From: a virus
Strand: one strand, 5' to 3'
IMG/VR virus record: IMGVR_UViG_3300042554_001552
Location: 53,229 to 117,228 of that record
Length of the DNA stretch: 64,000 bases
The notes beneath the pieces were generated by a model. The model saw nothing but the letters and a program-made list of their open reading frames with translations. It had not been told where the DNA came from and ran no database searches. Every line of letters begins with the position of its first letter. Within the stretch, counting starts at the first letter, position 1. Shown here piece by piece: positions 41,604 through 57,095 of the stretch. Both the position numbers and the translations under genes were made by a program.

Positions 41604-41743
41604 GTTACAAATCACTGACATATATTTAATTTAATATTAACCTTCCATACCTCACCATAATACACAACACCAAATTCATTATACCGTGTTATTAATTATA
41701 CATACACTGTTATAAATCCACAGTACACACCGTGTTATAAACA

Positions 41744-42577: not shown

Positions 42578-42766
42578 TCAGAGTCCTTTATCTCTTTTCT
42601 CTTGATTCGCCGTCTGCTGCAAATGCATAGTCGTATGAAGACGTTGTAGATTCGCATAGCGATTGTGCTGACGTGTTATGATTCCACTTTCCTTGGCTTT
42701 TGCAGCATCAACCTTTGCCTGTGGTGTTGTGAGAATCTGTTCCATGAACTGAAAGAACGTCTTCAT
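42578..42766 (-). CDS. Hypothetical helical protein, 62 aa
   Basis: Starts MKTFFQFMEQILTTPQAKVD, a hydrophobic first helix then charged helix (DAAKAKESGI, LQQTANQEKRDKGL). Its stop codon abuts the stop of the convergent GIY-YIG gene. A CATAAATA late-type element lies upstream, so it may be a small virion-associated protein. Confidence 0.58.
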   Translation of the reverse strand: MKTFFQFMEQILTTPQAKVDAAKAKESGIITRQHNRYANLQRLHTTMHLQQTANQEKRDKGL

Positions 42767-42786
42767 TTATCCTCTGACTTTTTGAG

Positions 42787-42794
42787 TATTTATG
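42787..42794 (-). promoter_or_regulatory. Late promoter variant CATAAATA
   Basis: CATAAATA on the minus strand, 21 bp before the ATG at 42766; one mismatch to the T4 late consensus. Confidence 0.58.
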
Positions 42795-42812
42795 GCGTCG
42801 CAAACCTCGATC

Positions 42813-43349: not shown

Positions 43350-43374
43350 TTCTTTGATTGTTGTGCTGATTTAA

Positions 43375-43719
43375 TCACTGAGGAGGTTCTGGAATATGAT
43401 CGTCAGGACAACAATCTTTTCTTGACTCCATGAACTTATCAAACTCTCCATTCATCCAATCTTCATCAGATTCTCTCCATTTACCCAATGGGCAGGCATC
43501 AAGAGCAAAACGAACTTTTGAATCCAAATAACAACCACATTCCTTACAACGATTGGGAATTGGGTCGCGGCGATCACAGGCTTCACAAATTGCCTTTCTC
43601 TTTAATACAACTTCATTGGAACAAAACAAACTATCACTTGCTTGTGCGTACTTGAGCACATCAAATGCAAACTTTGCAAGATTTTTTGCTTGCTGTGGTA
43701 ACGATGGATAATCACTCAT
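43375..43719 (-). CDS. Zinc-ribbon-like protein, 114 aa
   Basis: CEACDRRDPIPNRCKECGCY (about 45-64) and ALDACPLGKW provide two CxxC-type pairs suitable for one or two zinc ions. The C-terminus has MESRKDCCPDDHIPEPPQ. The start overlaps the stop of the adhesin-like gene (ATGA), so it may be a partner or chaperone for that protein. Confidence 0.68.
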   Translation of the reverse strand: MSDYPSLPQQAKNLAKFAFDVLKYAQASDSLFCSNEVVLKRKAICEACDRRDPIPNRCKECGCYLDSKVRFALDACPLGKWRESDEDWMNGEFDKFMESRKDCCPDDHIPEPPQ

Positions 43720-44870: not shown

Positions 44871-44899
44871 TAGACAACTAAGAATTCCTTAACGTACTG

Positions 44900-45184
44900 T
44901 TATTTAGTTTTGGAATCCACTTTTGCAGTTTCAGCAGTATAAGGCACTCGTCCTGTTTCTTGATACATCACCATATCATACTTGAACTTGCATTCCAGAG
45001 GTTTCTGATTGCACAGTTTCAGAGTTTGATTGATGGTTGATTCAGTGTATGCATTTGACCCTAGAGCAAATCCAATCATACCTGTCAATACAAGGGCAGG
45101 ATAATAGATAACCTTTCTCTTTACTGAAAAAGGGGTACGATTTCGCTGTTCAGGTAGCCCTGTTTCTGTACGTGTTGTTCCCAT
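44900..45184 (-). CDS. Membrane protein, 94 aa
   Basis: Starts MGTTRTETGLPEQRNRTPFS. One transmembrane helix at about residues 27-45 (YYPALVLTGMIGFALGSNAY), then a soluble tail with two Cys (LKLCNQKPLECKFKY) that could form a disulfide outside the membrane. Function unknown. Confidence 0.62.
   Translation of the reverse strand: MGTTRTETGLPEQRNRTPFSVKRKVIYYPALVLTGMIGFALGSNAYTESTINQTLKLCNQKPLECKFKYDMVMYQETGRVPYTAETAKVDSKTK
44901..44907 (-). promoter_or_regulatory. Late promoter variant CTAAATA
   Basis: CTAAATA(A) overlapping the stop of the 94-aa gene, 31 bp before the adhesin-like gene. Degenerate relative to TATAAATA. Confidence 0.42.
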
Positions 45185-45202
45185 AATGTAGCATCCTCAA
45201 TG

Positions 45203-45457
45203 TTAAAGAAAACTGCGGTTTGTTTGGTTGTTTTGTTCTTCTTCGATTTGTAATATACAACTTGGTATTTCATTGTCATTCCAATGTCTTACGACCCCTG
45301 CGATAATGAATAGATTAGTAATGAGATAAGTACCGAATATAACAGTCCGTATATGAGCAATGTGGTCTGCTTCTCTGTCATTTTTCGTCGCTTTCTCCCC
45401 AAGTGCTTTCGCCCACCATCGCCAAAGTTTTGTCCTCTTCCTTTTCTTCATTATCAT
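45203..45457 (-). CDS. Conserved membrane protein, 84 aa
   Basis: The LWRWWAKALGEKATKNDREA block followed by TVIFGTYLITNLFIIAGVVR (one transmembrane helix) is characteristic of a small cyanophage family. It overlaps the upstream gene by 80 bp in another frame; the start at 45457 or the ATG at 45451 are both possible. Function unknown. Confidence 0.7.
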   Translation of the reverse strand: MIMKKRKRTKLWRWWAKALGEKATKNDREADHIAHIRTVIFGTYLITNLFIIAGVVRHWNDNEIPSCILQIEEEQNNQTNRSFL

Positions 45458-45683
45458 AAACAGATTGTCTTGACCTTACATAGGTGAGTTCTTTCCACTG
45501 ATTATTATAGCACAGAACTAGCAATCGCTCATTGGAATGCAACTTACAGGCAGCATAGTTAGTCTTATCCTTGGGCTTGACATTGACTTCAATTGTGATG
45601 TACTCTACATCCTTGAAATACACCCAACCCTCAACACCTTTGGTCCAGGTGACATAATCATTGACTTCAGGAATGTAACTCAT
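45378..45683 (-). CDS. Conserved hypothetical, 101 aa
   Basis: Starts MSYIPEVNDYVTWTKGVEGW; a small beta-barrel-like N-terminal region (YVTWTKGVEGWVYFKDVEYI) recurring in cyanophages, with an acidic tail. ATGA overlap with the upstream 93-aa gene. Confidence 0.7.
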   Translation of the reverse strand: MSYIPEVNDYVTWTKGVEGWVYFKDVEYITIEVNVKPKDKTNYAACKLHSNERLLVLCYNNQWKELTYVRSRQSVYDNEEKEEDKTLAMVGESTWGESDEK

Positions 45684-45961
45684 ACAAATGCAGATTCAAG
45701 TGGTGTTTGCTTAGGAATCATCGCAGAATAAGGAGTTGTTTTCCTTATATCCACCGACTGTCCAACACTTTTGGAGTTGATGGGGGAATAATATGTTCTT
45801 GTTTTGGTGTTGTAGAACCCCCAGATACAACGAACGGCATCACCCAGATTGTAATCAAACCTACGGTCGTAATGAATCCAGATAGCAACAACATTGCGTT
45901 TAAACTCTGTCTGCTCATAATACATTCCCTCTGGTGCATTGTGTGGAAAATCAATGTTCAT
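45680..45961 (-). CDS. Conserved hypothetical, 93 aa
   Basis: FKRNVVAIWIHYDRRFDYNL followed by VRCIWGFYNTKTRTYYSPIN is a strongly conserved cyanophage block. It lies in a cluster with the 101-aa and 84-aa proteins that often travels together. No function known. Confidence 0.72.
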   Translation of the reverse strand: MNIDFPHNAPEGMYYEQTEFKRNVVAIWIHYDRRFDYNLGDAVRCIWGFYNTKTRTYYSPINSKSVGQSVDIRKTTPYSAMIPKQTPLESAFV

Positions 45962-45975
45962 CGTTATATCCCAAT

Positions 45976-46140
45976 TCAGTCGTTATCAACAACGGCACGA
46001 ATACGATTGGGATTGTATCCATCCTCAATCAGAGTTAGAATACATTGCATTGCTTGTTCTCTGGTCAGTTTGTGATATTGGGGGTCAATATCTTCCCAAC
46101 CTGTGGTTTCTAATTCAACAATTTTATACAGTTGGTCCAT
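45976..46140 (-). CDS. Conserved small hypothetical, 54 aa
   Basis: Starts MDQLYKIVELETTGWEDIDP and continues QYHKLTREQAMQCILTLIED. The TTGWEDIDP...LTREQ pattern recurs in cyanophages. Function unknown. Confidence 0.68.
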   Translation of the reverse strand: MDQLYKIVELETTGWEDIDPQYHKLTREQAMQCILTLIEDGYNPNRIRAVVDND

Positions 46141-46143
46141 GAA

Positions 46144-46794
46144 TTACCTCAGTGAAAGTGGTGCAGTTCGTGTCGTAATATCTCCCAGAATCATTGCATT
46201 AAAACTGATTGTAATACGATTCTTACCCTTACCATAGGATGTATATGTTTGGGGAACACCATGGGGAAGATAAGATGGGAATATCAACAACGTACCCTCT
46301 TCAAATTTAGGAATGAATACACCTGAGTTCGTTGCATTTAATTCATTGTGATTGGGTTCAAAGATTCGTGCTCCTGGGCGTGGATCGGAAAATGCAGTTC
46401 CTGAACAACTTGGAGGCATTGAAACGTGCAAAACACCACTCAGCAATGAATTGGGGTGAATATGATTCTGATGCGAATATTCAGGGCGATAACCTACGTT
46501 TGCCCACATACTTGTAAGATAGGATTCATCACGAATGACCGTCATATAATCCATGACGGATACTGCTTCCTGAAGAAAAAGGTCGGCAAGTTCTTCAAAC
46601 TGAGGTAGATTATGCAGGTTGTGATTGCTATGCCAACCAACAGTTCCTGCTTTATTCCCCATAGTTTCATCTTTGGTCAGTTTCATGACATCAGATGCAA
46701 CCTGGTTCAACAAACTTTTACTCTCAATCTTTGAGGAAAAGACCATTGATGGGAATGTTGGCCAAATTGTGCGATCAATTAGTTTGATACTCAT
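46144..46794 (-). CDS. 2OG-Fe(II) oxygenase-like protein (TIGR02466 type)
   Basis: 216 aa. WANVGYRPEYSHQNHIHPNS (about 97-116) carries the first His ligand region, FPSYLPHGVPQTYT the distal His, and RITISFNAMI the 2OG-binding Arg and final strand. This architecture fits the putative 2OG-Fe(II) oxygenases common in T4-like cyanophages. Substrate unknown. ATGA overlap with the upstream gene. Confidence 0.75.
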   Translation of the reverse strand: MSIKLIDRTIWPTFPSMVFSSKIESKSLLNQVASDVMKLTKDETMGNKAGTVGWHSNHNLHNLPQFEELADLFLQEAVSVMDYMTVIRDESYLTSMWANVGYRPEYSHQNHIHPNSLLSGVLHVSMPPSCSGTAFSDPRPGARIFEPNHNELNATNSGVFIPKFEEGTLLIFPSYLPHGVPQTYTSYGKGKNRITISFNAMILGDITTRTAPLSLR

Positions 46795-47024
46795 GTCGTG
46801 AATGAATCAACAATGCGGGAGTCTTCATCATTGGCAAGAGCAAATTTATGGGCATTAACAACACGTTCCATAATCCGAGAATCGTGTGCATTCTCATACT
46901 CATCACGCCAGTCCAGAAGAACATCATGGCACTCGTTATCATTTTCTGCGATGACACTAACTACGCCACCATATTCAGAAGAAGGAAACGGAACCCAATA
47001 ATCAACCAGATAAAGATACTTCAT
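46791..47024 (-). CDS. Conserved hypothetical, 77 aa
   Basis: Starts MKYLYLVDYWVPFPSSEYGG; an alpha/beta protein (VVSVIAENDNECHDVLLDWR) reminiscent of the small MKVYAV-type protein at 34900. No motif. Confidence 0.64.
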   Translation of the reverse strand: MKYLYLVDYWVPFPSSEYGGVVSVIAENDNECHDVLLDWRDEYENAHDSRIMERVVNAHKFALANDEDSRIVDSFTT

Positions 47025-47037
47025 TGTTGTGTGTAAA

Positions 47038-47217
47038 TTACTCCTTAATTTTAGTGTATTTGTTGCTTCCTGTCAAGCAGTTCAATTGTCGCTCAATCTC
47101 AAACTTAATTGGAAGCAAATGCGAAGAAAAAAATCCAGCATATTGCCCATCACTCAGAAGTTTATGAAGATTTTCAACCTGAATCTGTGCCAGAATCAAT
47201 TTTGTTTTTTGATCCAT
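47038..47217 (-). CDS. Hypothetical helical protein, 59 aa
   Basis: Starts MDQKTKLILAQIQVENLHKL; amphipathic helices with two Cys-free turns. The stop overlaps nothing; the start shares TAATG with the 68-aa gene upstream. Function unknown. Confidence 0.6.
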   Translation of the reverse strand: MDQKTKLILAQIQVENLHKLLSDGQYAGFFSSHLLPIKFEIERQLNCLTGSNKYTKIKE

Positions 47218-47423
47218 TACACAAACTCCTGAAGATAATAATCAACAGAAACATTCAGTTCTGCTGCTTTTTTCTCAATGAAATTGAGACGATGATTGCC
47301 CCCTGTTACATAATTACGTGCTTCCTGCCATTTTTTGTGGGCATCAATTTCAGTTTCTGCGTGTTTCATAAAATCCTCAAATGCGGTCATAAACTGCCTA
47401 ATGTCTTCGTCGTTCATAATCAT
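47217..47423 (-). CDS. Small protein with DYYLQEFV tail, 68 aa
   Basis: Starts MIMNDEDIRQFMTAFEDFMK (an ATG two codons on is also possible). The C-terminal KAAELNVSVDYYLQEFV matches the tail of the 48-aa protein at 40700-40846, suggesting a duplicated small module used with different N-termini. Function unknown. Confidence 0.62.
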   Translation of the reverse strand: MIMNDEDIRQFMTAFEDFMKHAETEIDAHKKWQEARNYVTGGNHRLNFIEKKAAELNVSVDYYLQEFV

Positions 47424-47725
47424 CCAATAATACGATAACAGACAGTTGCATTACCTTTTTGAGGTGATGCAATATGGGCAAATGCAGCATAAGATAAATC
47501 TAAGTCTGCATGAGAGTAAGGTCCGCGATCATTGACGCGAACAATCACCTGCTTCATGTTATCTTGGTTTGTCACCCTGATCTTACTGCCCATAGGCAAA
47601 TGAGGATGAGCTGCAGTCCAACGATAAGCATCAAACCGTTCACCATTGGCGGTTTTTTGTCCATGGAAACCATCGCCAACACCGTAATATGTAGCGATAC
47701 CACACATCAAAGCGGCAATAATCAT
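47420..47725 (-). CDS. RlpA-like double-psi beta-barrel protein
   Basis: 101 aa from the ATG at 47725, which forms ATGA with the upstream stop. ATYYGVGDGFHGQKTANGER, TAAHPHLPMGSKIRVTN and VRVNDRGPYSHADLDLSYAA are the RlpA (DPBB) signatures. RlpA proteins bind or cleave septal peptidoglycan. The N-terminus (MIIAALMCGIA) is short and hydrophobic, probably an export signal. In a phage it may assist cell-wall remodelling or lysis (inference). Confidence 0.88.
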   Translation of the reverse strand: MIIAALMCGIATYYGVGDGFHGQKTANGERFDAYRWTAAHPHLPMGSKIRVTNQDNMKQVIVRVNDRGPYSHADLDLSYAAFAHIASPQKGNATVCYRIIG

Positions 47726-47883
47726 TCTATGTGACAATCAGGGTGAAAAGATTTCATTTGTTCGCAGATTTGTGCTTGGCGATTCTTGTAACCTTCAAAC
47801 ATTTTGTTATCACGTTGGATTAGAAACAAATTCCAACCAAAGATAACGCCAACTGCGAGTAGAGCATAAAAATAGAGTTTCAT
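47722..47883 (-). CDS. Membrane-anchored small protein, 53 aa
   Basis: Starts MKLYFYALLAVGVIFGWNLF, a single N-terminal transmembrane helix, then a soluble tail (QAQICEQMKSFHPDCHIE) with two Cys. It could be a spanin-like or membrane factor next to the RlpA-like gene; there is no firm evidence. Confidence 0.6.
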   Translation of the reverse strand: MKLYFYALLAVGVIFGWNLFLIQRDNKMFEGYKNRQAQICEQMKSFHPDCHIE

Positions 47884-48044
47884 CCGCAATCAAGGTCGTA
47901 GAGAATAGCAGCAGACATTTCAGAAAGAATCTTTCGGTTCAAGTTATGTACATCATAACCAATCTTTTCCGAAAGATCAACCCAATCAGGATGTTTCATA
48001 AGAATGTTGAGCATCGCACTTAGTTCATCAGTTGTAAATGCCAT
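47880..48044 (-). CDS. Hypothetical protein, 54 aa
   Basis: Starts MAFTTDELSAMLNILMKHPD and ends AAILYDLDCG; helical. ATGA overlaps with genes on both sides. Function unknown. Confidence 0.62.
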   Translation of the reverse strand: MAFTTDELSAMLNILMKHPDWVDLSEKIGYDVHNLNRKILSEMSAAILYDLDCG

Positions 48045-48307
48045 CAGCAAGCACCATGAAAAGGATTACCAAGTTGAGGCAGGTCGGAGTTGTCACCAGT
48101 TTCGACATAACCCAGTGCCAGACGCTCACGAATCGCAAGAGTCTTCTCAACACGATTCAGAAACTTCTTGGAGATTTGATCCACACCTTTCCAAGACAGA
48201 ACCTGCAGGCACCATTCCTGACTAATATCACCATAAGGCGTCTTGACAGGATAGTAACCAACCAGCATCGTGCCGTCTGCAGACTGGAGAGTGGGGAAGG
48301 TGGTCAT
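48044..48307 (-). CDS. Hypothetical protein, 87 aa
   Basis: Starts MTTFPTLQSADGTMLVGYYP. A beta-rich first half (EWCLQVLSWKGVDQI) and helical second half (NRVEKTLAIRERLALGYVET). It has its own promoter with a tandem-repeat -35 region and the AAGGTAATC leader shared with other genes at 51.3 and 53.3 kb. Function unknown. Confidence 0.62.
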   Translation of the reverse strand: MTTFPTLQSADGTMLVGYYPVKTPYGDISQEWCLQVLSWKGVDQISKKFLNRVEKTLAIRERLALGYVETGDNSDLPQLGNPFHGAC

Positions 48308-48331
48308 TGGGTGTCCCTCGATTACCTTAGT

Positions 48332-48369
48332 ATTATAGGGCAGAGTCAGGGCAGAGTCAGGGCAGAGTA
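48332..48369 (-). promoter_or_regulatory. Promoter with 11-bp tandem repeats
   Basis: Minus strand: CTGACT (48355-48360), 17-bp spacer, TATAAT (48332-48337). The upstream part consists of three 11-bp units (plus-strand AGGGCAGAGTC at 48337, 48348 and 48359), so alternative -35 boxes are created one unit apart. Confidence 0.65.
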
Positions 48370-48379
48370 TGCCAGTTCA

Positions 48380-50002
48380 TCAAGTGGACCCTCTGTGAAT
48401 GTTTTGTCTCAAATAGTCATACATTGACTGGCATTGTGATGCATAGGACTGATAGTGTTTTTGACAACCAGTAAAAACATCTGATAGGTAATCCAAATAT
48501 GCATCACAATCTAATCCTTTTAACTTACCCATTGCCAAATGTAGATGTGCATCCACAGGAGAATAATCCATACCTGCAGCAATACATTGAAATCCTGCCC
48601 CTGGTTGATATTCCCCAAACTTGTATCGGGCATTTGCAGTGAACATAAACTCACTGGTTGCAACAATATCCCCAACCTTACTTTGCATGGATAAAGTATC
48701 TGCTATTGTTGAATTAACATCTGCAGAGATTCTACATCTCTCAGTAATATCCATCCAATAGTCAGAGTCATGTCTTGGACTGATTGCATAATGCAATGCT
48801 ACAAATTGTGCTAATTGATAGTAGGTCTGACTCATTGAAAAATTATAAGCATCTCTATCCCACTGATTAACAATCCTATTTCTGCGGAGAGTATGGGCAA
48901 GAGGAAGAAGGAATTCATATGTTGTTAGCAATCCTGTGCTTTCCAGTGGTTCAATAAATCCAGCAGCAAGACCAATACCAATCACATTCTTTTTCCAAAT
49001 CTGATTATGCAAACCCAACTTCATATCAATTGGTCTATATTCCAATTCTTCAGGATCAACACGATGAGTGTGCTTAATGTGATTCTTGAATTCTTTCAGA
49101 GCATCTTCTGAAGAAATGTACTTATCACTATAGACATATCCACCACCAATGCGAGACCACAAAGGAATATTCCATACCCAACCATTTGTCAGAGCAGTGC
49201 AGTTTGTAAATGGCTCTAATTGTTTCTTTTTATCTTTATATGGAATATGTGTCGCCCATGCTTTATTGTTTGGAATGATGTGAGAAATCGAATTGAACTT
49301 CTCTTCAAGAGCGCCACCCAAGAGCATACTCTTAAATCCTGTACAATCAATGAACAAGTCTGCGGTAATTGTTGATCCATCTTTGAGTTTAAGATAATCA
49401 ACTCCGTTCTCATTTGTAACTACACCATCTACAGTTGAATGAATCAACTTGACTCCTCTAGGGAGACAAACTGCAGTCTTCAAGTATTGTCCAAATGCTG
49501 TTGCATCAAAATGATAAGCAGCATCAAAGTTAAAATTAAATCCTGGAGTCTTTCCAGTACCATCTGTTGATATTTTTCTTTGTTCAGCAACAGCAGTGAT
49601 TGGATAAAAACAACGGGCATATGAGTTCTTATCCAGAACATCAGGTCTTAGTTGTTTAACTAAGTACCAATCATTTCTACTCAGTTGTTCATGAGGAACC
49701 GTAGACATCCCAAATGGATAGTGAAAGGAACCAGTCCCCTTTCCTTCAAAATCAGTAAATTTAATGCTTAATTTGTATATTCCATCAGTTTTATGCAAGA
49801 AATCTCTATCATTCAATCCAAGCAAAGAAGTCCAGTGCTTAATACCACCCAAGGTGCTTTCACCCACACCAAGAATAGCAAAGTCTGGACTTTCGATGAC
49901 AGTTAGATCAATTTCAGGAATTTGAGTTGCAATGGTGGCAGCAGACATCCATCCTGCCGAACCACCACCGACAACCACAATCTTTTTTATTTCTTTACTC
50001 AT
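48380..50002 (-). CDS. Flavin-dependent tryptophan halogenase-like protein
   Basis: 540 aa, the usual length of PrnA/RebH-type enzymes. VVVGGGSAGWMSA (about 9-21) is the FAD-binding GxGxxG; GVGESTLGGI the conserved GEST loop; IKF (around residue 81) the position of the catalytic lysine in PrnA. GWVWNIPLW is the W-x-W-x-I-P motif that separates halogenases from monooxygenases. Such enzymes chlorinate or brominate tryptophan or other aromatics using FADH2. Homologues occur in several cyanophages with unknown physiological substrate. The upstream -10 TATAAT overlaps the end of the preceding gene. Confidence 0.9.
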   Translation of the reverse strand: MSKEIKKIVVVGGGSAGWMSAATIATQIPEIDLTVIESPDFAILGVGESTLGGIKHWTSLLGLNDRDFLHKTDGIYKLSIKFTDFEGKGTGSFHYPFGMSTVPHEQLSRNDWYLVKQLRPDVLDKNSYARCFYPITAVAEQRKISTDGTGKTPGFNFNFDAAYHFDATAFGQYLKTAVCLPRGVKLIHSTVDGVVTNENGVDYLKLKDGSTITADLFIDCTGFKSMLLGGALEEKFNSISHIIPNNKAWATHIPYKDKKKQLEPFTNCTALTNGWVWNIPLWSRIGGGYVYSDKYISSEDALKEFKNHIKHTHRVDPEELEYRPIDMKLGLHNQIWKKNVIGIGLAAGFIEPLESTGLLTTYEFLLPLAHTLRRNRIVNQWDRDAYNFSMSQTYYQLAQFVALHYAISPRHDSDYWMDITERCRISADVNSTIADTLSMQSKVGDIVATSEFMFTANARYKFGEYQPGAGFQCIAAGMDYSPVDAHLHLAMGKLKGLDCDAYLDYLSDVFTGCQKHYQSYASQCQSMYDYLRQNIHRGST

Positions 50003-50033
50003 GTATATTTTTTAATCTTTAGTAATTATAGCA

Positions 50034-50237
50034 TCAAAAAGAGGGAACTACATCATTCCTAAGCCCAGTCTCAGACCTATCCATCTGTTCCCAGTAGGAA
50101 TAAAGTTTGTTATACAGTGCTGGAGCACTTCCATATTCTCTTGCAATTCTATTTTCATCAGCATTCTCAAGATTTTGAAGTGCAGATAGAATCACACCAA
50201 TTTCATGAACATTCAGTTGTACAGTTGCTTCAGTCAT
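50034..50237 (-). CDS. Conserved hypothetical, 67 aa
   Basis: The start at 50237 (MTEATVQLNVHEIGVILSAL) matches the common cyanophage form. A helical pair (QNLENADENRIAREYGSAPA, LYNKLYSYWEQM). Function unknown. Confidence 0.68.
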   Translation of the reverse strand: MTEATVQLNVHEIGVILSALQNLENADENRIAREYGSAPALYNKLYSYWEQMDRSETGLRNDVVPSF

Positions 50238-50242
50238 TGTTA

Positions 50243-50632
50243 TCAGTCCCAAGATACGTTTTGAAGTAAGAAACCAGGCATCACCAGTGACCAAGCACCC
50301 TGGTCACCAGTGCCACTAACTTTATATTCCCATTTATAGGCAAACTTGTTATGACTGTCCCAAGTCATAAACCCCTTCTCCTTATCAAACCAAGACTTAA
50401 TGGTCAGACCAAATCGATTAGAGTAAATATTGCGGGTTCGCAGTGCTCCGCCAGTTTCACGGGTTTCAACTACTTTACAGGTATCAAACTGAGCCTGAAG
50501 ACCTACATCCAGAGCACAAGGAGTTTCATACACAAATGGACGATAAACTTTCGGTTTAGCGACAGTTGGTGCCGTCTGTGCAAATGCAGGAGAAGTCAGC
50601 AACAGAGTTACAAGTAGAAGTAGTTTTTTCAT
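50243..50632 (-). CDS. Secreted or periplasmic protein, 129 aa
   Basis: An N-terminal signal peptide MKKLLLLVTLLLTSPAFAQ with a probable AFA|Q cleavage site. The mature part is beta-rich with two Cys (TPCALDVGLQAQFDTCKVVE) and ends AWSLVMPGFLLQNVSWD. No family recognised. It may alter the infected-cell envelope. Confidence 0.68.
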   Translation of the reverse strand: MKKLLLLVTLLLTSPAFAQTAPTVAKPKVYRPFVYETPCALDVGLQAQFDTCKVVETRETGGALRTRNIYSNRFGLTIKSWFDKEKGFMTWDSHNKFAYKWEYKVSGTGDQGAWSLVMPGFLLQNVSWD

Positions 50633-50859
50633 TCAAACTCTCCATTACGGTTGTTTGGTTTAGAATTTTTCAATGAATACACTTCAACACTCAGTGATTG
50701 AATTGCAGAATACAAATTGCTATCCAACTGATTCACCTTATACTCAAGGTTTCCCATTTGACGATAGAGATTCAGGCATAGAAGAAGATTACCTGCGATG
50801 CCAACAACAATTGCCCACCCAATCACTTGCTCAAGTCGTTCTTCACTCAGTCTCATCAT
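50629..50859 (-). CDS. Membrane protein with coiled coil, 76 aa
   Basis: MMRLSEERLEQVIGWAIVVG begins a transmembrane helix (WAIVVGIAGNLLLCLNLY), followed by a coiled coil (KVNQLDSNLYSAIQSLSVEV). ATGA overlap with the secreted protein downstream; together they resemble inner/outer membrane pairs, but a spanin role is not established. Confidence 0.62.
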   Translation of the reverse strand: MMRLSEERLEQVIGWAIVVGIAGNLLLCLNLYRQMGNLEYKVNQLDSNLYSAIQSLSVEVYSLKNSKPNNRNGEFE

Positions 50860-51001
50860 CTTCTCCTACAACTTCCAGATAATTATAACCAATCACTTGG
50901 CGTCCTTGATGAGTTGCAGTATCAATCTTTACACCCTCACTTTCAAGTTTTTCCAGGCGACGATTTGTAGCAGTATTCAGTTTAGTAGTCCAATAGGTCA
51001 T
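50843..51001 (-). CDS. Hypothetical protein, 52 aa
   Basis: Starts MTYWTTKLNTATNRRLEKLE, continues SEGVKIDTATHQGRQVIGYN and ends in an acidic tail. Overlaps the next gene by 17 bp and shares TAATG with the previous one. Function unknown. Confidence 0.6.
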   Translation of the reverse strand: MTYWTTKLNTATNRRLEKLESEGVKIDTATHQGRQVIGYNYLEVVGEDDETE

Positions 51002-51156
51002 TAAATTTCTCCTTTCTTATTGTATTCTATCATAGAACGTCGTGCAGCGTAAGCCTCAAATTCTGATGGGAATGATGCAATGGTTCGACCATTATCTGCC
51101 CAGTGCAAATACCAACGGTTTGCAAATTGTTTAATAAGAATTGGTTTGTCCATCAT
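51001..51156 (-). CDS. Hypothetical protein, 51 aa
   Basis: Starts MMDKPILIKQFANRWYLHWA, then DNGRTIASFPSEFEAYAARR, a KTSC- or helix-strand-like small fold. The ATGATG junction overlaps the stop of the gene upstream. Function unknown. Confidence 0.62.
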   Translation of the reverse strand: MMDKPILIKQFANRWYLHWADNGRTIASFPSEFEAYAARRSMIEYNKKGEI

Positions 51157-51314
51157 TCTTCGGGGTAGAGTTTCCAACCATCAGGGCGGATGCCCATTTC
51201 TTCACAACGAACCTCATAAACAATCCGCTTCAGAAGTTGAAGAGGCATTTCATTCTCAATCTTTTTCTGAATGGTGCGGCGCAGTTGGGCGTCCTGGGTG
51301 GTGTCGGTGACCAT
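51153..51314 (-). CDS. Hypothetical protein, 53 aa
   Basis: The start at 51314 (MVTDTTQDAQLRRTIQKKIE) follows a TATAAT box (51339-51344) and the leader ACAAGGTAATCAAGGGAACC. A charged helix (NEMPLQLLKRIVYEVRCEEM) dominates. Function unknown. Confidence 0.6.
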   Translation of the reverse strand: MVTDTTQDAQLRRTIQKKIENEMPLQLLKRIVYEVRCEEMGIRPDGWKLYPEE

Positions 51315-51339
51315 TGCGGTTCCCTTGATTACCTTGTAA

Positions 51340-51816
51340 TTATAGGGCACTCATCAGGCGATTCGGGAAGAACTGTGCCACTTGATGATCTGTCCATCCG
51401 TTCTTCTCAAACAGGTACTCCAGATATAGGGTTTCTTCTTGCTCCCGTGCCTCTATTTCGTGTGGTTGATGCCAATAGTCGTACTTTTCGACAGGTTCTT
51501 TAGAATAACACAATTTTCCGTATCGGAACCGCAGCGAACCGACTACCCACTGTCGCAGATGGACCAGCTCATGCAAAAGAGTTTTTATATACAACTCCTC
51601 GGACATGTGGGTGTTAAGTTCAATCAGAAACTCACGTGGGCGACGTGATTCACCCACATAGTCACAATATCCATAAACCTGCTCACGACGCAGACCACGG
51701 TGAAGAATCTCCACCTCAATCTTATGACGGGGAAGAAACTTATTCAGAAACCAAGTGGTAACGTCCTCACAGAGGAGTTTAGAATAACCGTATCCAGAAT
51801 ACGTGATGTAAGACAT
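51340..51816 (-). CDS. Zinc metallopeptidase-like protein (HExxH), SprT-like
   Basis: 158 aa from the ATG at 51816 (a TTG 21 bp earlier is possible). TLLHELVHLRQW (about residues 87-98) is the zinc motif and HEIEAREQEETLYLEYLFEK gives a candidate Glu ligand. It is a longer relative of the 115-aa protein at 33572. The promoter region of the next gene overlaps its C-terminal codons. Substrate unknown. Confidence 0.72.
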   Translation of the reverse strand: MSYITYSGYGYSKLLCEDVTTWFLNKFLPRHKIEVEILHRGLRREQVYGYCDYVGESRRPREFLIELNTHMSEELYIKTLLHELVHLRQWVVGSLRFRYGKLCYSKEPVEKYDYWHQPHEIEAREQEETLYLEYLFEKNGWTDHQVAQFFPNRLMSAL

Positions 51817-51877
51817 TGCCCCCAATGCAAAAACCAAATGAACGAAGAAATGAAGATGAGTTTGTCTTTAGCAGTCA

Positions 51878-52255
51878 TCAGTTACATCCGAAAGCGGCAC
51901 CTCCAAGAAACACTCCAAGTGGAACAGACCATTTATAACCATCTCCACGACTCATGCTAGCAGCAATACCACCACCTAGAATACCACCTAAAGCAGTTTT
52001 TGTTGGATCACAATAAACACCTCTATTAGGACGATAATCGGAATTATACCGATTATACCTACCATATCCACCATTACATGGAACATTATAACGTTCGGTA
52101 TTCACGTATCCCTGTTGATAGTTGCCATACCCATCATAATATCCTGGGACATAAACCTCACGAGTTCTGGTGCATTCCTGAAATTCAGTCACTTGCTGTG
52201 CCTGAACTGGAATGGAGAGAAAAGTAAGGGAGAGTAGTAGGAATAGTTGTTTCAT
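51878..52255 (-). CDS. Exported glycine-zipper-type protein, 125 aa
   Basis: Signal peptide MKQLFLLLSLTFLSIPVQAQ, then a Tyr/Gly/Asn-rich middle (YVPGYYDGYGNYQQGYVNTE, YGRYNRYNSDYRPNRGVYC) and a glycine-zipper C-terminus (GGILGGGIAASMSRGDG). It resembles envelope-associated YMGG-type proteins of bacteria. Possibly host-derived; role in infection unknown. Confidence 0.68.
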   Translation of the reverse strand: MKQLFLLLSLTFLSIPVQAQQVTEFQECTRTREVYVPGYYDGYGNYQQGYVNTERYNVPCNGGYGRYNRYNSDYRPNRGVYCDPTKTALGGILGGGIAASMSRGDGYKWSVPLGVFLGGAAFGCN

Positions 52256-52258
52256 TGC

Positions 52259-52690
52259 TCAGCGAAGATAGAGATAACCACCTGCCCAGTCGGCGTGTTG
52301 CAGCAACCACTCACGTTGCTCAATGATGCGAAGGTCGAAGCGAACACCTTTGGCAGGTGCTTTGAAACTGGCAGACTTATAGACTTCACCAGTCTTTTTA
52401 TCTATAAAAGCATGAACTGAACGAGAACCAGCAGCGTTCATAATGATTTTGTGATACTTACGACCCGTTTCGGGGTAGAAGTCATAATCACAAGTACCTT
52501 CCTTCAGTTTAGCAATCTGTGCCTGATGATATTCCAGGTTATCATCACAACGCTCATGCATACGGATGGAATAATCAATGTAGTTCTGACGCAGTGCCTC
52601 ACAGAGGGCATAGGTGTGCCCCAGAACAGCAGCAGCGATGTCTTTCCGTGCCTCAGCAGCGGCGGCGTAGTCAGCGAAGGTGGTGGTCAT
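52259..52690 (-). CDS. Hypothetical protein, 143 aa
   Basis: The start at 52690 (MTTTFADYAAAAEARKDIAA) is fixed by a TATAAT box about 30 bp upstream. The N-terminal half is a long helix; the C-terminal half is beta-rich (GRKYHKIIMNAAGSRSVHAF, IDKKTGEVYKSASFKAPAKG), a pattern seen in small phage proteins with a KTGEVYK hairpin. Function unknown. Confidence 0.65.
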   Translation of the reverse strand: MTTTFADYAAAAEARKDIAAAVLGHTYALCEALRQNYIDYSIRMHERCDDNLEYHQAQIAKLKEGTCDYDFYPETGRKYHKIIMNAAGSRSVHAFIDKKTGEVYKSASFKAPAKGVRFDLRIIEQREWLLQHADWAGGYLYLR

Positions 52691-52742
52691 TGCTTGGTTG
52701 CGTATGAACGTATTATAGGGCATCCCAGAGGGGTCTGGGAGG

Positions 52743-52868
52743 TCAGTATGCCAGTTCTGAATCTGGCACCCAGGGTTCGTCATCACCCAGGTATCCCATC
52801 CAATCTTGAGGGTCAGACTCATACATTGCGATTTCCCGCAGTTCGTCAATCAGTTCAGACAGGTCCAT
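52743..52868 (-). CDS. Tiny acidic protein, 41 aa
   Basis: MDLSELIDELREIAMYESDP opens it and EPWVPDSELAY closes it; the last codons include a copy of the GTGCCAG...CTGGCAT palindrome. A TATAAT box sits about 26 bp upstream (plus-strand ATTATA at 52890-52895). Function unknown. Confidence 0.58.
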   Translation of the reverse strand: MDLSELIDELREIAMYESDPQDWMGYLGDDEPWVPDSELAY

Positions 52869-52908
52869 AATGATCCTCAACTACTTGGGTATTATAACAG
52901 AAAGCGGA

Positions 52909-53310
52909 TCAAACCGCCAGTGCTGCAGAAGGAATCTCTACAACTTCAGGCAGTTTGCTGTCATCAAACTGGTGCATATTGTAGCAGACCCATTCGCCAC
53001 CACGGAAGACATAAGCATACTCTTCACTGTTATCAGGAAGAAGATACTCGCACAGGTCAGCATCAAGGCGAGGAGGGCAATTCTCACCACGCTGAGAGTA
53101 GTATTCGGGGTGATATGCGTTCTCATAGTCATTCTTAGTCCAGCAGGAAGACATATCACCACCGTCAATCAGTTCGGCAGCGAGTTCTTTGCTATTGTAA
53201 TGCGTCTTCAGGATGCGACCCAACCATTCGGGATACGAGTCCCAATGATGATAGCTGCTCAGAATGCTGCCATCAGAAAGTTCGATTCCGATTCTTCCGC
53301 GAGTTGCCAT
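52909..53310 (-). CDS. Conserved hypothetical, 133 aa
   Basis: Starts MATRGRIGIELSDGSILSSY and continues HHWDSYPEWLGRILKTHYNS; this family (GRIGIE...HHWDSYPxxLG) is recurrent in cyanophages. Mixed alpha/beta with no catalytic motif known. Promoter -10 TATACT and leader AACAAGGTAATCAAC upstream. Confidence 0.72.
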   Translation of the reverse strand: MATRGRIGIELSDGSILSSYHHWDSYPEWLGRILKTHYNSKELAAELIDGGDMSSCWTKNDYENAYHPEYYSQRGENCPPRLDADLCEYLLPDNSEEYAYVFRGGEWVCYNMHQFDDSKLPEVVEIPSAALAV

Positions 53311-53333
53311 TGGGGCGTTTGTTGATTACCTTG

Positions 53334-54143
53334 TTAGTATAATGCCTCTAGCAGCGGATTCTGGGGTTCCTGTGCCACTTCCTCAACTGGCATAGCATCC
53401 TCTATGCGTTGCTTAGCAATCTCATAATATTCTTGTTCAAATTCCATCCCAATAAACTTTCGATTTAATTTAACTGCAGCAACACCAGTAGAACCAGAAC
53501 CCATACAGTTATCAAGAACAATCTCACCTTCATTAGAATACGTTTTGATTAACCATTCCATTAGTGGAACAGGTTTCTGTGTGGGATGCACCTGTTGTTG
53601 AGCACTAAAGTCTCTGGAGATATTAAGAACAGACTTGGGATATCTTACACCTTCATTACTGAAGGATTTACGTGGTTTCATACCATAACCATGGTCATTC
53701 TTGCGACCAACGTATCCCTCTGGATTCTTACTTGTTCTTGAGTACGGTTCTCCTTTTTCCATCTGTGGGTTGTACGTACCACCTGTTTCCCTGTAAAAAA
53801 TTAGAACGTTCTCGTGAGTCTTCATTGGTCTGTACTTGGCAAGTCCAGGCGATCCACATTTGTTCTTGTTCCATACTAATTCGTACCTGAACCATTCTAG
53901 TTTTGAGCAGATAAGTTGTGCTGAAAAGGGTTGAGAACCAAATAGACATATCACACCTTTAGGTTTGATGATACGCCCATATTGCTGCCACATTTGGTTA
54001 AAATCTAAAACTTCATCCCACTTGATGGAAGTAGTCCCATAAGGTGGGTCGCAGCAGATGAAATCAATAGAATTGTCTGGAATCTCTTTCATGAGTTCCA
54101 GACAGTCACCTAGTTGTAAGTCAAAGGGCATCATAACCTTCAT
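53334..54143 (-). CDS. DNA methyltransferase, beta class (N6-adenine or N4-cytosine)
   Basis: 269 aa. CDPPYG (residues 31-36, motif IV) lies N-terminal and LDNCMGSGSTGVAA (210-223, AdoMet-binding motif I) C-terminal, the order of beta-class methyltransferases; DPPY favours N6-adenine. HPTQKPVPLMEWLIKTYSNE is motif X/II-like. The first codons overlap the end of the restriction-endonuclease candidate by 23 bp, the classic arrangement of a restriction-modification pair. The C-terminal tail MPVEEVAQEPQ is encoded by a copy of the repeated palindrome, as if the element had been absorbed into the gene. Confidence 0.85.
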   Translation of the reverse strand: MKVMMPFDLQLGDCLELMKEIPDNSIDFICCDPPYGTTSIKWDEVLDFNQMWQQYGRIIKPKGVICLFGSQPFSAQLICSKLEWFRYELVWNKNKCGSPGLAKYRPMKTHENVLIFYRETGGTYNPQMEKGEPYSRTSKNPEGYVGRKNDHGYGMKPRKSFSNEGVRYPKSVLNISRDFSAQQQVHPTQKPVPLMEWLIKTYSNEGEIVLDNCMGSGSTGVAAVKLNRKFIGMEFEQEYYEIAKQRIEDAMPVEEVAQEPQNPLLEALY

Positions 54144-54723
54144 GGGCAGTAATTTTTTTGAGAACAGATTCTTTGTAACATCCTACCAGAAAATCATACG
54201 CTTCAGCATGAGTACGCTGAACAGGAGTAGTATTAACCCGCCATTCAATCTGGAAAGGAAGATTGTTACCGTTAGAAGTGAGTTTGTTGAGAGTTTTAAG
54301 AGAAGTAAGATGAACCTCGTTAGTAACTTTATTCAATGAGATGATATAATAATCACGATTATTATCTTTGCTGCTATGATTCTTTAAAAGTTCTTGAAAC
54401 TTCTTCCAACGCTGAACATTAACTTTATCTTCGGGCAAGTCAGTCAGAGCATACAGAATCGCTGCTTTCGAAGTAAAATTATCTGCAGCACTACCATACT
54501 TGGAAGATTTGATGTTGAGAGGATAACCAAACACCTTGACATCCCACCAGTTACGCTCTACAGGTTTCTCTACATTCTCACTACCATACTTATCAACCAA
54601 CAGGTCAATGATAGTATCTTCATCATCAATGCTATTCACACGACCATCGCCATGCTTTTCACTGACAGAGATGACAATGCTGTTGAGAAACTCAACAACT
54701 TCAACAAGAATAGACGGAAACAT
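54121..54723 (-). CDS. PD-(D/E)xK-like type II restriction endonuclease candidate
   Basis: 200 aa; the start at 54723 (MFPSILVEVVEFLNSIVISV) follows TATAAT. GRVNSIDDEDTIIDLLVDKY (27-46) and WWDVKVFGYPLNIKSSKYGS (59-78), then AADNFTSKAAILYALTDL, match the pattern of several type II enzymes in which W-x-D-x-K-x(4-6)-P-x-N-I-K-s-s and a-D-N form the nuclease core. Asp61 and Lys72 would be catalytic, with Asn70 replacing the usual acid before the lysine; Glu35 may contribute. Overlap with the methyltransferase is strong contextual support. The DNA site is unknown. Confidence 0.65.
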   Translation of the reverse strand: MFPSILVEVVEFLNSIVISVSEKHGDGRVNSIDDEDTIIDLLVDKYGSENVEKPVERNWWDVKVFGYPLNIKSSKYGSAADNFTSKAAILYALTDLPEDKVNVQRWKKFQELLKNHSSKDNNRDYYIISLNKVTNEVHLTSLKTLNKLTSNGNNLPFQIEWRVNTTPVQRTHAEAYDFLVGCYKESVLKKITAHEGYDAL

Positions 54724-54745
54724 CAAATTGATTAAACTATTAGTA

Positions 54746-55237
54746 TTATACGTCTTTTTCTGTCTCTTGGATATCTTCTTGTACCACTTCCTCAACTGGC
54801 ACATCAACCTTGGAACTTCTCAAGGTTTTTGGCTTAGTGTATTCGACTGGAACAAAAGGTTGTTCAGGATCTTTTGTTGCTCTAATAGATGGACTAGAAG
54901 TAAATTTCTTGGTCTTTTTTGGTTGTTTTAAAAGTTTGTGGCGGAACAATGTTTGACCAGGATTAAGCTCCTTAGGTGGTTCTGGATCTGGTTCAAATTG
55001 TTTTAAATATGTCTTTTTACTGAAGAGAAGATTCTTTTCAATTGCTTCTTCAGGAGTTGCAGGTAAATCTTCTTCTACAATTGATGATTGTTTCTGAATT
55101 TCTTCATAAACATCAACATGTGGAACATCTTCTGTCTTTTCTTCAACAGGAGCACATACAACTTCTGGTTCTGGTTGAACTACACTCTCTGGTTGTTTTT
55201 GAGATTCAGAAGAAACAAGATCAGAAAATCTTCCCAT
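54746..55237 (-). CDS. Acidic, proline-rich disordered protein, 163 aa
   Basis: Starts MGRFSDLVSSESQKQPESVV; low-complexity Glu/Pro/Val segments (VVQPEPEVVCAPVEEKTEDV) with a basic patch (RHKLLKQPKKTKKFTSS). An AATAAATA late-type promoter precedes it although it lies inside the DNA-modification cluster, so it may be a late, possibly virion protein. Its C-terminus VPVEEVVQE is encoded by a close copy of the repeated palindrome. Confidence 0.62.
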   Translation of the reverse strand: MGRFSDLVSSESQKQPESVVQPEPEVVCAPVEEKTEDVPHVDVYEEIQKQSSIVEEDLPATPEEAIEKNLLFSKKTYLKQFEPDPEPPKELNPGQTLFRHKLLKQPKKTKKFTSSPSIRATKDPEQPFVPVEYTKPKTLRSSKVDVPVEEVVQEDIQETEKDV

Positions 55238-55252
55238 CGTCCTACTTTTTGA

Positions 55253-56080
55253 CTATTTATTATTCCAAACAGCAATTAGTTCATTTGCTTTCTTCCTACT
55301 AGAACCCTTGGCAGAAATGGTCCTAGTCACCTGAATTGGATAGATTTTAGCATTATTATAAAGTTCTCTTGCAACAGGAACATCGTGATTAGAAATAATG
55401 ACGGTAATTCCTTTGTTTGCAAGTTGTTCTGCCAAATCTCTCAACTCAACTTGCTGTGCATCAGTAAATCCATCCGTGGCATAATCTGTAAAGGATGCAG
55501 TTTCCGAAGCTGGAATGTATGGTGGGTCAAAATATACAGTATCACCTGCTTCTAAGTCCTCATAAAGTGACGGATCTTCAAAAGATAATGAAGTGAATCG
55601 TGTAAGTTTTTTAGTGAGGAAGAACATTCTAAAGTTCATCATCTCTTCCGATGGGCAAGATGGTTTATCATACTTACCAAAGGGAACATTAAATTCACCT
55701 TTCTTATTATATCTCGACAGTCCATTGAAGCAGTGACGGTTCAGGTAAATGAACAGTCGTGCCCTCTCTATAGTGTTTGTTGCCTGGTTAAAGTGCTTCC
55801 GCAACTCTAGATATGCTTCCTTAGTATTATTTTCTGGAATGAATAACTCTTCGCAATATTTGATGAAGTTATCATCCCCAGGATGAACCAAATTCTGGTA
55901 GATTGCCACCAAATCTTTATTCACATCATTCAAAATGTATTGCTCTGCTGGTGTGTTAAGGGCAACAGCAAGACTACCACCAAAGGGTTCGCAATAACGC
56001 TTTGGATATCCAATATGGGGAATAAGATGGGGCAGGACCCGTGTTTTGTTTCCTGCCCACTTCAAGAAAGTTTTGTTCAT
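55253..56080 (-). CDS. dam: DNA adenine methylase, Dam type
   Basis: 275 aa. FLKWAGNKTRVL (5-16, AdoMet motif I), FGGSLAVAL (33-41), NRHCFNGLSRYNKKGEFNVP (114-133) and VYFDPPYIP (182-190, motif IV) define an alpha-class N6-adenine methylase of the T4 Dam/EcoDam family, usually GATC-specific. ATGA overlap with the ParB-like gene puts both under the promoter at 57062-57090. It would mark phage DNA against GATC-cutting enzymes, including possibly the phage's own Sau3AI/MutH-like protein at 36.8 kb. Target site inferred from family. Confidence 0.92.
   Translation of the reverse strand: MNKTFLKWAGNKTRVLPHLIPHIGYPKRYCEPFGGSLAVALNTPAEQYILNDVNKDLVAIYQNLVHPGDDNFIKYCEELFIPENNTKEAYLELRKHFNQATNTIERARLFIYLNRHCFNGLSRYNKKGEFNVPFGKYDKPSCPSEEMMNFRMFFLTKKLTRFTSLSFEDPSLYEDLEAGDTVYFDPPYIPASETASFTDYATDGFTDAQQVELRDLAEQLANKGITVIISNHDVPVARELYNNAKIYPIQVTRTISAKGSSRKKANELIAVWNNK
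55254..55261 (-). promoter_or_regulatory. Late promoter variant AATAAATA
   Basis: AATAAATA on the minus strand at the stop codon of dam, 17 bp before the ATG at 55237. One mismatch to TATAAATA. Confidence 0.52.
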
Positions 56081-57000
56081 TTAATAGGGTCTTTCAATCC
56101 GTATTTTTCAAGAATGTCTTCAGAGATACACTGACTGTTTGCAGTTGTAGAAAGAGCATTATAACTCTTAATGATTCTTCTGGCAATCAAAACATCAGTA
56201 TTTGGTCCAGAGATTCCTTCATACCAAACTTTTGGTTTGGACTTAGACATTTCAAAGCAAACAAAATTCAGAACTTTTTCTCTCCTTCCGTTGATGACTT
56301 CACTTGCATTATCAAGAAATCTAATCAAGCAAGATAGTCCATACACGATATCACCACGAACTTCACGTTTGCCTGAAACTTTATCAAAGTAGTCTTTTGC
56401 ATAAGAAACTGCTCTCATAACGGTTACAAGTTCGTAATTCTTTACTGCTTGTCTCCACTGATATTCACCATTTAATTGATGTCCTTCAACATCACCAAGA
56501 CTATCAACATAAACGCCACAGGCACTGAGATTGTCATTATATACAATTGCCTCTGGCAGACCAAACACATACCCTGCTCTCATTTTGTCAATGTGAGTGG
56601 GATTTTTACGTTTTGCATTTTGAGCGTGAAAGATTTCTGCTTCAATCTTTTCGCAGTCTTCATCACTTCTATTTTTGGTGTGTTCAAGCACCATACAAGG
56701 AACTTTATCAATACAACCACTCCACAGTGCCATAACTGCTTTGTGCTGCCCGTCAATCACGACGATTCTACCATCAGGACGAACGGCAACAATTAGTGGA
56801 ACAAAATACCACTTGTTGAATTGACCATATGTATTAATATCACCACAAGAAAGGTCTCTTTGATAGCTTTCGGGAACTATTAACTTATAGACTTCTAGCT
56901 CTTTATACACTAGAAACTCGTTAATACTACCAGGACGAAACTTTTTTGCTTTCGATTTGAATTTATGTGCAAGCTGCACTAAAGGAACATAGTTCTTCAT
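56077..57000 (-). CDS. ParB/Srx-fold protein (ParB N-terminal-like)
   Basis: 307 aa. IVAVRPDGRIVVIDGQHKAV (about 71-90) contains the DGQHK form of the ParB box (G-E-R/Q-R/H), and a helical middle and C-terminal region follows (LIRFLDNASEVINGRREKVL). Phage proteins with this fold can be DNA-binding CTPases or nicking enzymes; which applies here cannot be told. First gene behind a near-perfect promoter and directly upstream of dam, so likely early and DNA-related. Confidence 0.72.
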   Translation of the reverse strand: MKNYVPLVQLAHKFKSKAKKFRPGSINEFLVYKELEVYKLIVPESYQRDLSCGDINTYGQFNKWYFVPLIVAVRPDGRIVVIDGQHKAVMALWSGCIDKVPCMVLEHTKNRSDEDCEKIEAEIFHAQNAKRKNPTHIDKMRAGYVFGLPEAIVYNDNLSACGVYVDSLGDVEGHQLNGEYQWRQAVKNYELVTVMRAVSYAKDYFDKVSGKREVRGDIVYGLSCLIRFLDNASEVINGRREKVLNFVCFEMSKSKPKVWYEGISGPNTDVLIARRIIKSYNALSTTANSQCISEDILEKYGLKDPIK

Positions 57001-57061
57001 TTAAAGACTCCATAAAGGAAGGGATTCGTAGTTTTACGACAAATTGCGGTCAGTGATATTT

Positions 57062-57090
57062 AGTATAACATAAAAAAAGAGGGTTGTCAA
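57062..57090 (-). promoter_or_regulatory. Near-consensus sigma70 promoter inside a terminator
   Basis: Minus strand: TTGACA (57085-57090), 17-bp spacer, TATACT (57062-57067). The -35 box is the loop region of the hairpin terminating cp12, and the T run lies in the spacer. It would drive the ParB-like, dam and downstream genes. Confidence 0.82.
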
Positions 57091-57095
57091 CCCTC
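57072..57095 (-). terminator. Rho-independent terminator after cp12
   Basis: Minus strand: GAGGGTT-GAC-AACCCTC followed at once by TTTTTTT. Seven-base-pair stem, three-base loop, seven T: the best intrinsic terminator noticed in the window, placed 7 bp after the cp12 stop. Confidence 0.88.

Follow-up and report, generated by a model that had tools for sequence, protein, structure and literature searches.

A phage-borne restriction endonuclease and methyltransferase pair, probably directed at GTNNAC, in a cyanophage genome

Results

An overlapping endonuclease and methyltransferase gene pair

The stretch of DNA analysed (the window, 64,000 nucleotides) is part of a 117,228-base IMG/VR record that encodes baseplate-wedge and head-closure proteins and gives short DNA matches to Synechococcus phages. 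Two overlapping open reading frames on its minus strand had been proposed, from the letters alone, to encode a restriction endonuclease candidate and a beta-class methyltransferase, and both are found as described. The first (54121..54723, minus strand, ATG at 54723) encodes a 200-aa protein that is predicted to be a Type II restriction endonuclease (REase) with the target GTNNAC. The second (53334..54143, minus strand) encodes a 269-aa beta-class DNA methyltransferase (MTase) predicted to protect GTNNAC, a target that is inferred and not demonstrated. According to the ORF coordinates the end of the REase gene, with its stop codon, overlaps the MTase start by 23 bp (54121..54143, minus strand); many of the viral REase loci in IMG/VR have a similar overlap, and the arrangement suggests, as an inference, translational coupling. 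The 200-aa frame does not arise by chance, as it matches PHROG 3978 [‘endonuclease’, E = 3.5e-96] and has relatives in phage records, viral loci and prokaryote contigs. The MTase matches Pfam N6_N4_Mtase (E = 2e-34) and has the expected DPPY motif followed by GSGSTG. With an REase gene adjacent to an MTase gene the locus has the gene arrangement of a Type II restriction–modification (R-M) system.

The same phage encodes a separate D12 (Dam-like) methyltransferase (window 55253-56080), adjoined by a 307-aa protein with weak ParB-like matches (56077-57000), and a second D12-class methyltransferase outside the window (21519-22205 of the record, G000). A tryptophan halogenase gene lies at window positions 48383-50002 (PHROG 2928, E = 6e-137).

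Fold and active site of the REase

Three REase alignments were used, with 11 phage rows (A1), 55 rows (A2, wide) and 25 mostly bacterial rows (A3). The AlphaFold model calculated from 55 rows has a pLDDT of 93.3 and a pTM of 0.88. Foldseek places SwaI (E = 9e-6), ThaI (E = 1e-4) and HincII at the top ranks. VIA-align superimposes the model on SwaI with a Z-score of 13.3 (170 residues, 3.0 Å), followed by HincII (Z = 11.1), EcoRV (9.0), ThaI (8.6) and NlaIV (8.1); these top five matches are all restriction enzymes and the next have Z-scores of 6.9 and lower. The sequence-only reading would have been refuted by a predicted structure without a PD-(D/E)xK fold or with matches to non-nuclease families only; neither outcome was obtained, and the best structural matches (SwaI, HincII, EcoRV, ThaI) support an endonuclease. 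The predicted model thus has the fold of the PD-(D/E)xK superfamily. An Asp or Glu two residues before the catalytic Lys is missing, so the strict (D/E)xK motif fails; the motif is a variant one, with Asn70, and the claim to the fold stands.

Neither Pfam nor NCBIfam names a family for the REase. The ThaI family (Pfam PF15514) was considered and rejected, since it scores 18.7 bits against a gathering threshold of 25 and its profile matches only 5 of the 55 REase members at E 0.01; the two NCBIfam matches, each to one member, are to unrelated enzymes. Profile searches of the PDB returned nothing at E 1 with the wide alignment A2, and ThaI (E = 0.004) and a glutathione transferase (E = 0.15) with the narrow A1.

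The motifs W59-W-D61-V-K63, P68-L-N70-I-K72-S-S and A80-D81-N82, read earlier as those of a Type II enzyme, are all present, although K63 is not conserved in bacterial relatives. N70-I71-K72 (54508..54516, minus strand, codon position counted from ATG 54723) contains the active-site lysine, invariant in 55/55 rows of A2, with Asn in the place of the (D/E)xK acid. D61 (54541..54543, minus strand) is the probable metal-binding Asp of the PD motif, a role that is inferred, and E35 (54619..54621, minus strand) the probable helix acid, presumably comparable to Glu45 of EcoRV; each is at least 90% conserved in the 55 rows. The pair D81-N82 (54478..54483, minus strand) is invariant in all 55 rows and its role is unknown. 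Asn70 had been flagged as atypical, which is correct for the expected acid position but is not peculiar to the window copy: Asn is found in 11/11 phage rows of A1, in at least 90% of the 25 rows of A3 and at the Helicobacter pylori-type GTNNAC locus. The conservation across phage, mostly bacterial and H. pylori-type rows identifies Asn70 as a family trait. In A2, Asn is the majority residue at position 70, with Gln in some phage rows and Ser in L048; the L062 REase has Asp two residues before the catalytic Lys. Conservation of the peptide NGNNLPF is partly built in, because it served as a search pattern.

Distribution of the pair in phages

Forty phage records contain an REase relative (62–68% identity, all with at least 80% coverage), already annotated ‘restriction endonuclease’ or ‘endonuclease’. 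The best 40 MTase-matching phage records are the same 40, where the MTase (76–81% identity) is annotated ‘DNA adenine methylase’; outside these best 40, a histogram has four more phage records with MTase matches of 60–80% identity. The 40 records consist of a few lineages and RefSeq duplicates (P-HM2, Syn33/S-RIM12, ACG-2014a/S-MbCM100). An R-M pair had been considered unusual for such a phage; that phages seldom carry REase genes is in line with the available portion of a review (PMC4081073), but the pair is already known by name in these 40 cyanophage records. Seven Mycoplasma phage records contain a more distant REase relative.

In IMG/VR, the best 80 of 83 relatives correspond to 79 distinct REase loci, four of them cut by a contig end; 67 have the same beta-class MTase as the window directly downstream, 4 a gamma-class MTase and 8 none. 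In P-HM2 the cassette lies between hsp20 and a hypothetical gene, whereas in P-HM1, of the same species, it is absent; across 24 kb of the window around the pair, the sole megablast match to ACG-2014a covers part of the pair. From these two observations the cassette looks mobile. The REase is under strong purifying selection, with dN/dS of 0.04–0.11 in 14 of 15 pairs (the remaining pair is identical).

Cellular relatives and exchange of the methyltransferase

A scan of prokaryote genomes identified 58 contigs with an REase relative (31–41% identity) from Helicobacter, Campylobacter, Bacteroidota, Saccharibacteria, Mycoplasma, an Altarchaeum and others; no relative was found in the plasmid collection with the L034 REase as query. 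A gamma-class MTase is adjacent in 57 of the 58, in either gene order, and in the remaining locus (L075) a broken gamma-type MTase frame is readable upstream. All eight partner MTases examined match Pfam Eco57I, and one examined against the PDB matches M.TaqI. Two of the 57 loci (L046, L054) also have a distant beta-type match nearby (27% identity). As the MTase is beta-class in 67/79 viral loci and gamma-class in bacteria, the partner has been swapped. In the REase tree (61 rows) the 34 rows of cyanophage type make up one side, a split that has full support, and viral L137 and L138 fall among bacterial REases. L116 is labelled in the tree as having a beta-class MTase, a label that is unproven, as only 29 bp of its contig lie beyond the REase. 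L134, on a 175-kb viral contig (G009), has a gamma-class MTase and an REase placed on the cyanophage side with a long branch, which suggests, without proof, that the swap happened within phages. L134 is a possible intermediate preceding it.

In 37 of 121 genomes from the family to which a Helicobacter canis genome belongs, a profile search detected the REase, in several with internal stops. Four fetched genomes of 1.5–1.7 Mb (L259–L262) have the gene order FlgD, FlgE, REase, gamma-class MTase, UvrD/Rep helicase and outer-membrane protein (the order was checked with Pfam in L259 only, where the last protein has no match). The REases of the window and L259 are 33% identical over 192 residues (E = 4e-31). 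We take the helicase to be HP0911 and, by sequence, the outer-membrane protein to be AlpA. In the portion of PMC7564109 available, HP0907 is flgD, HP0908 flgE and HP0912 alpA; by this flgD–flgE order the REase corresponds to HP0909 and the MTase to HP0910, and the gene order implies that the four genomes are H. pylori or a near relative. The hp0909/hp0910 genes have been assigned m6A in GTNNAC, at 820/826 sites (PMC6381644, partial text), and Hpy166II is described as an isoschizomer of HP0909, with HP0910 inactive in strain 26695 (PMC3936762, likewise partial). By homology to the product of this locus, whose identification as HP0909 comes from gene order, the window REase is assigned to the HP0909 (HpyAIX/Hpy166II) family. 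The gamma-class N6-adenine MTase of that system has no counterpart in the pair; judged from sequence, the partner is replaced by one of a different class, the beta-class MTase. The HP0909 link was drawn after the GTNNAC depletion described below had been obtained.

Depletion of GTNNAC

GTNNAC occurs 12 times in the window against about 188–189 expected, with all 16 central pairs below expectation. The remaining sites (extent 6016..57091, no strand) start at 6016, 33605, 36150, 36229, 36379, 41101, 41723, 47638, 48384, 48639, 49701 and 57086; none is inside the REase or MTase gene. The palindromes GTTAAC, GTATAC, GTGCAC and GTCGAC are missing from the window and from REase-positive contigs mostly without an adjacent MTase.

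Among 952 two-plus-two-base motifs (gaps 0–6) scanned in eight sets, six with the REase (R+) and two without (R-), GTNNAC is the most depleted in 5/6 R+ and 0/2 R- sets. It ranks first in contigs with the REase alone (0/198, observed/expected), the window (12/189), ACG-2014a (8/186), G010, a phage with a gamma-class MTase (7/77), and P-HM2 (112/345), and is not first in Syn33 (R+), P-HM1 (R-) and S-PM2 (R-). Synonymous codons were also shuffled on sampled stretches, keeping proteins and codon use. The observed/expected ratio (O/E) for GTNNAC is then 0.055 in the window, 0.045 in ACG-2014a, 0.048 in S-MbCM100 (the same species as ACG-2014a), 0 of 112 in the REase-only set, 0.12 in G010, which has the bacterial-type pair, and 0.42 in P-HM2; R+ phages with weaker depletion are G014 (0.57), Syn33 (0.69) and G013 (0.71). 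Nine R- cyanophages, in which a search found no REase, have values of 0.51–1.06, with P-HM1 at 1.06. A general avoidance of GTNNAC shared alike by all cyanophages is ruled out by these nine controls, of which three avoid it mildly: ACG-2014f (0.51), Syn9 (0.73) and S-PM2 (0.75). In these three GTNNAC heads a list of 16 motifs ordered by depletion, though its depletion is milder than in R+ phages. Across the 18 sets the O/E of five control motifs stays at about 0.75–1.28, the one exception being TGNNCA in G013 (7/35).

Avoidance is strong in the window, REase-only and P-HM2 sets, whereas Syn33 and some clades show little or none. When 21 REase-positive clades are pooled individually, GTNNAC ranks 1–3 of 952 in 15; the other six ranks are 4 (P-HM2-like), 8 (L019/L128–L131, 59/108), 9 (the G013 clade), 12 (L119–L123/L127, 60/116), 17 (L139) and 27 (Syn33). 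In these six clades methylation may be sufficient, acquisition may be recent or the specificity may differ. Taken together, the 58 prokaryote loci are more strongly depleted in GTNNAC (356/996) than in any other of 16 motifs, with GGNNCC (280/683) close behind; considered singly, 23 of the 58 loci have GTNNAC in first place.

Other motifs are depleted too. AGCT and AGCC are strongly depleted in many sets, R- phages included, and CCGG is absent from the window (0 seen, 52 expected; 12/180 in related phage loci). REase-free P-HM1 (L166–L169) is strongly depleted in GTAC (91/340). The G013 clade (L099–L101, L219–L221, L197), with REase and MTase, has TGNNCA 102/325, CATG 36/221 and GTNNAC 125/218, which may reflect a shifted REase target or a second system. 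The R- phage ACG-2014f (L157/L191/L192), clearly depleted with its O/E of 0.51, has a 46%-identical MTase; it may once have owned the REase, or rivals may target it.

Phages of the same host permit direct comparison. P-HM2 (R+, with MTase) and P-HM1 (R-) belong to the same species, and the host given in either record is MED4. Their alignment (68,276 columns, 82% identity) contains 43 GTNNAC sites common to the two phages; a further 36 occur in P-HM2 alone and 130 in P-HM1 alone. The private-site ratio (P-HM2/P-HM1) is 0.28, compared with 0.80–2.20 for 15 other XYNNY'X' motifs (binomial p = 1e-13). On host WH7803, S-MbCM100 (R+, with MTase) has a codon-shuffle O/E of 0.048 versus 0.75 in S-PM2 (R-); Syn33, also R+ with MTase and on WH7803, has 0.69. 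GTNNAC depletion is tied to carriage of the REase.

REases without an adjacent methyltransferase

The eight viral REase loci without an adjacent MTase are L091, L094, L098, L103, L116, L125, L126 and L132. L094 and L116 are uninformative, with only 97 and 29 bp of contig left beyond the REase. The six informative loci comprise one clade (L091/L098/L103), two with an identical REase (L125/L126) and L132, whose 5' end is cut off. The REase-only contigs (5.8–14.8 kb) gave no match to an N6_N4, D12 or Eco57I methyltransferase, C5-cytosine enzymes being outside the search. The contigs of L091, L098, L103 and L125 (L142, L144, L145, L146; 50.3 kb, the first three partly overlapping) contain 0 GTNNAC against 166 expected (per-contig expectations summed). 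With the contig of L094 (L143; REase 97% identical, MTase status unknown) the count is 0 versus 197 in 59.6 kb, all 16 NN variants being absent; the contig of L132 (L147) has 2 versus 17 expected. The eleven nearest relatives with an MTase (REase 77–82% identity) have 116 of 299 expected. The REases are intact, with dN/dS of 0.04–0.07 in the L091/L098/L103 clade.

On the tree the REase-only state needs two changes, most simply two losses of the MTase. The contigs are fragments and no longer contigs of REase-only phages were found, so genome-wide loss cannot be shown. Perhaps these two cyanophage lineages are protected by site removal; an MTase elsewhere in the genome is not excluded.

Discussion

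The locus is best explained as a complete phage-borne Type II R-M pair in which the REase cuts unmethylated GTNNAC and the overlapping beta-class MTase modifies that site, a reading to which we assign a probability of about 0.83. Fold (in a predicted model), family membership, conserved pairing, purifying selection and depletion are observed. Cleavage, methylation and biological role are inferred, and site-specific cleavage blocked by methylation has only the indirect support of site avoidance. Against the reading stand the lack of a canonical acid before K72 and the weak depletion in some phages that have both genes. The link to H. pylori rests on family membership at 33% identity and on gene order, and there is no direct evidence for the MTase target.

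Avoidance could instead reflect restriction of GTNNAC by host cyanobacteria or competing phages, the phage REase being aimed at another site. Phages exposed to host restriction are known to avoid the sites concerned (PMC4687349, in the part available), and some R- phages are also depleted (ACG-2014f, 0.51; Syn9, 0.73; S-PM2, 0.75). We consider this unlikely: of P-HM1 and P-HM2, which share species and the host MED4, only the R+ phage is depleted (1.06 versus 0.42, and the paired test), which makes host restriction an improbable cause of the P-HM2 depletion; S-MbCM100 and S-PM2, on WH7803, differ in the same way (0.048 versus 0.75); and, as an independent point, the H. pylori-type GTNNAC locus belongs to the REase family.

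It is less likely again that the REase is an inactive relic and that the MTase alone shields phage DNA from host restriction, as might be argued from the Asn in place of Asp/Glu before the lysine and from the suggestion for chloroviruses that orphan viral MTases may remain after loss of the companion REase (PMC7019647, partial text). Against a relic stand dN/dS of 0.04–0.11 (0.04–0.07 in the clade without an adjacent MTase), the conservation of catalytic positions in distant relatives and the complete lack of GTNNAC sites on REase-only contigs. HincII, the second-best structural match (Z = 11.1), likewise pairs with a gamma-class MTase (PMC4081073, in the section available), so that the narrower HincII target GTYRAC has to be considered; of the three alternatives it has the least in its favour, since all 16 NN variants are absent from L142–L146 and non-YR variants are low in the window too (GTATAC 0/14, GTAAAC 1/16).

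If the pair is indeed directed at GTNNAC, the REase, a presumably dimeric PD-(D/E)xK-fold enzyme of the SwaI/HincII/EcoRV branch, and the MTase would be made together from the overlapping genes during infection. The REase would cut GTNNAC in unmodified DNA of the infected cell and the MTase would mark the site (m6A or m4C) in phage DNA, so that progeny would have a double protection, methylation and a scarcity of sites. The likeliest target would be unmarked DNA of the host chromosome, possibly along with that of rival phages; hosts are inferred, on base composition only, to hold thousands of GTNNAC sites. T4 is protected by its modified cytosine, and T4-like cyanophages are not known to have that modification. 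The REase is a candidate for part of the host DNA destruction by T4-like cyanophages, for which chloroviruses offer a precedent by analogy only. When P-HM2 or Syn9 infects, the host DNA is broken down within hours (PMC7852597, available part), and as Syn9 is without the REase, this enzyme cannot be the only nuclease involved in cyanophages.

Relatives that seem to have only the cutter, and that show no GTNNAC sites, indicate that the REase may be used to destroy other DNA in the cell. A restriction-only form is possible. The specific proposal that some lytic cyanophages have lost the MTase and keep, under selection, an active GTNNAC endonuclease that shreds non-phage DNA, protected themselves only by having zero sites, remains tentative, with the odds somewhat against it. 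If restriction without modification does exist, the MTase would serve as a bridge, required only during the purging of sites from the phage genome, and phages with no REase, with REase and MTase, and with an REase but no MTase seen form a natural series for following this purging.

Restriction enzymes are usually seen as weapons against phages, and a widespread marine cyanophage group appears to turn one round. The GTNNAC target is directly testable with commercial Hpy166II. Behind an ordinary-looking annotation lies a phage-borne restriction system whose target is probably GTNNAC; its MTase is of a swapped class and its genomic footprint is strong. No account of the cyanophage pair's target, the MTase swap or the REase-only form was found in the titles and abstracts searched, which leave subscription journals mostly uncovered.

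Comparison with known systems

The annotated pairs of P-HM2, Syn33, S-RIM12, ACG-2014a and S-MbCM100 are direct homologues with no difference in kind; they are annotated by name only and the target is absent from their feature annotations. Chlorovirus R-M systems are also virus-encoded, with adjacent REase and MTase genes, but their hosts are eukaryotic algae. According to the accessible part of PMC7019647, the role proposed for chlorovirus REases is early degradation of host DNA, and mutual exclusion is not accounted for by them; an REase-only, site-free form does not appear in that part. ThaI (3ndh, PF15514) gives a weak sequence match of about 40 residues and is also without an acid before the lysine. 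HincII and SwaI, of the EcoRV branch, have an overall fold like that of the window REase at only 12–18% identity in structural alignment; the window REase differs from both in that Asn replaces the acid preceding the active-site lysine, a comparison that uses what we take to be the active-site residues of HincII. ThaI cuts CGCG, which differs from GTNNAC. The HincII target GTYRAC (PMC4081073, in the section available) is a subset of the predicted GTNNAC. The H. pylori system HpyAIX/Hpy166II/Hpy8I (HP0909–HP0910) has a homologous REase, overlapping frames in the order REase before MTase and the same predicted target, GTNNAC; the window pair differs in being phage-borne and in having a beta-class MTase, whereas the bacterial MTase is gamma-class, of the Eco57I/TaqI type.
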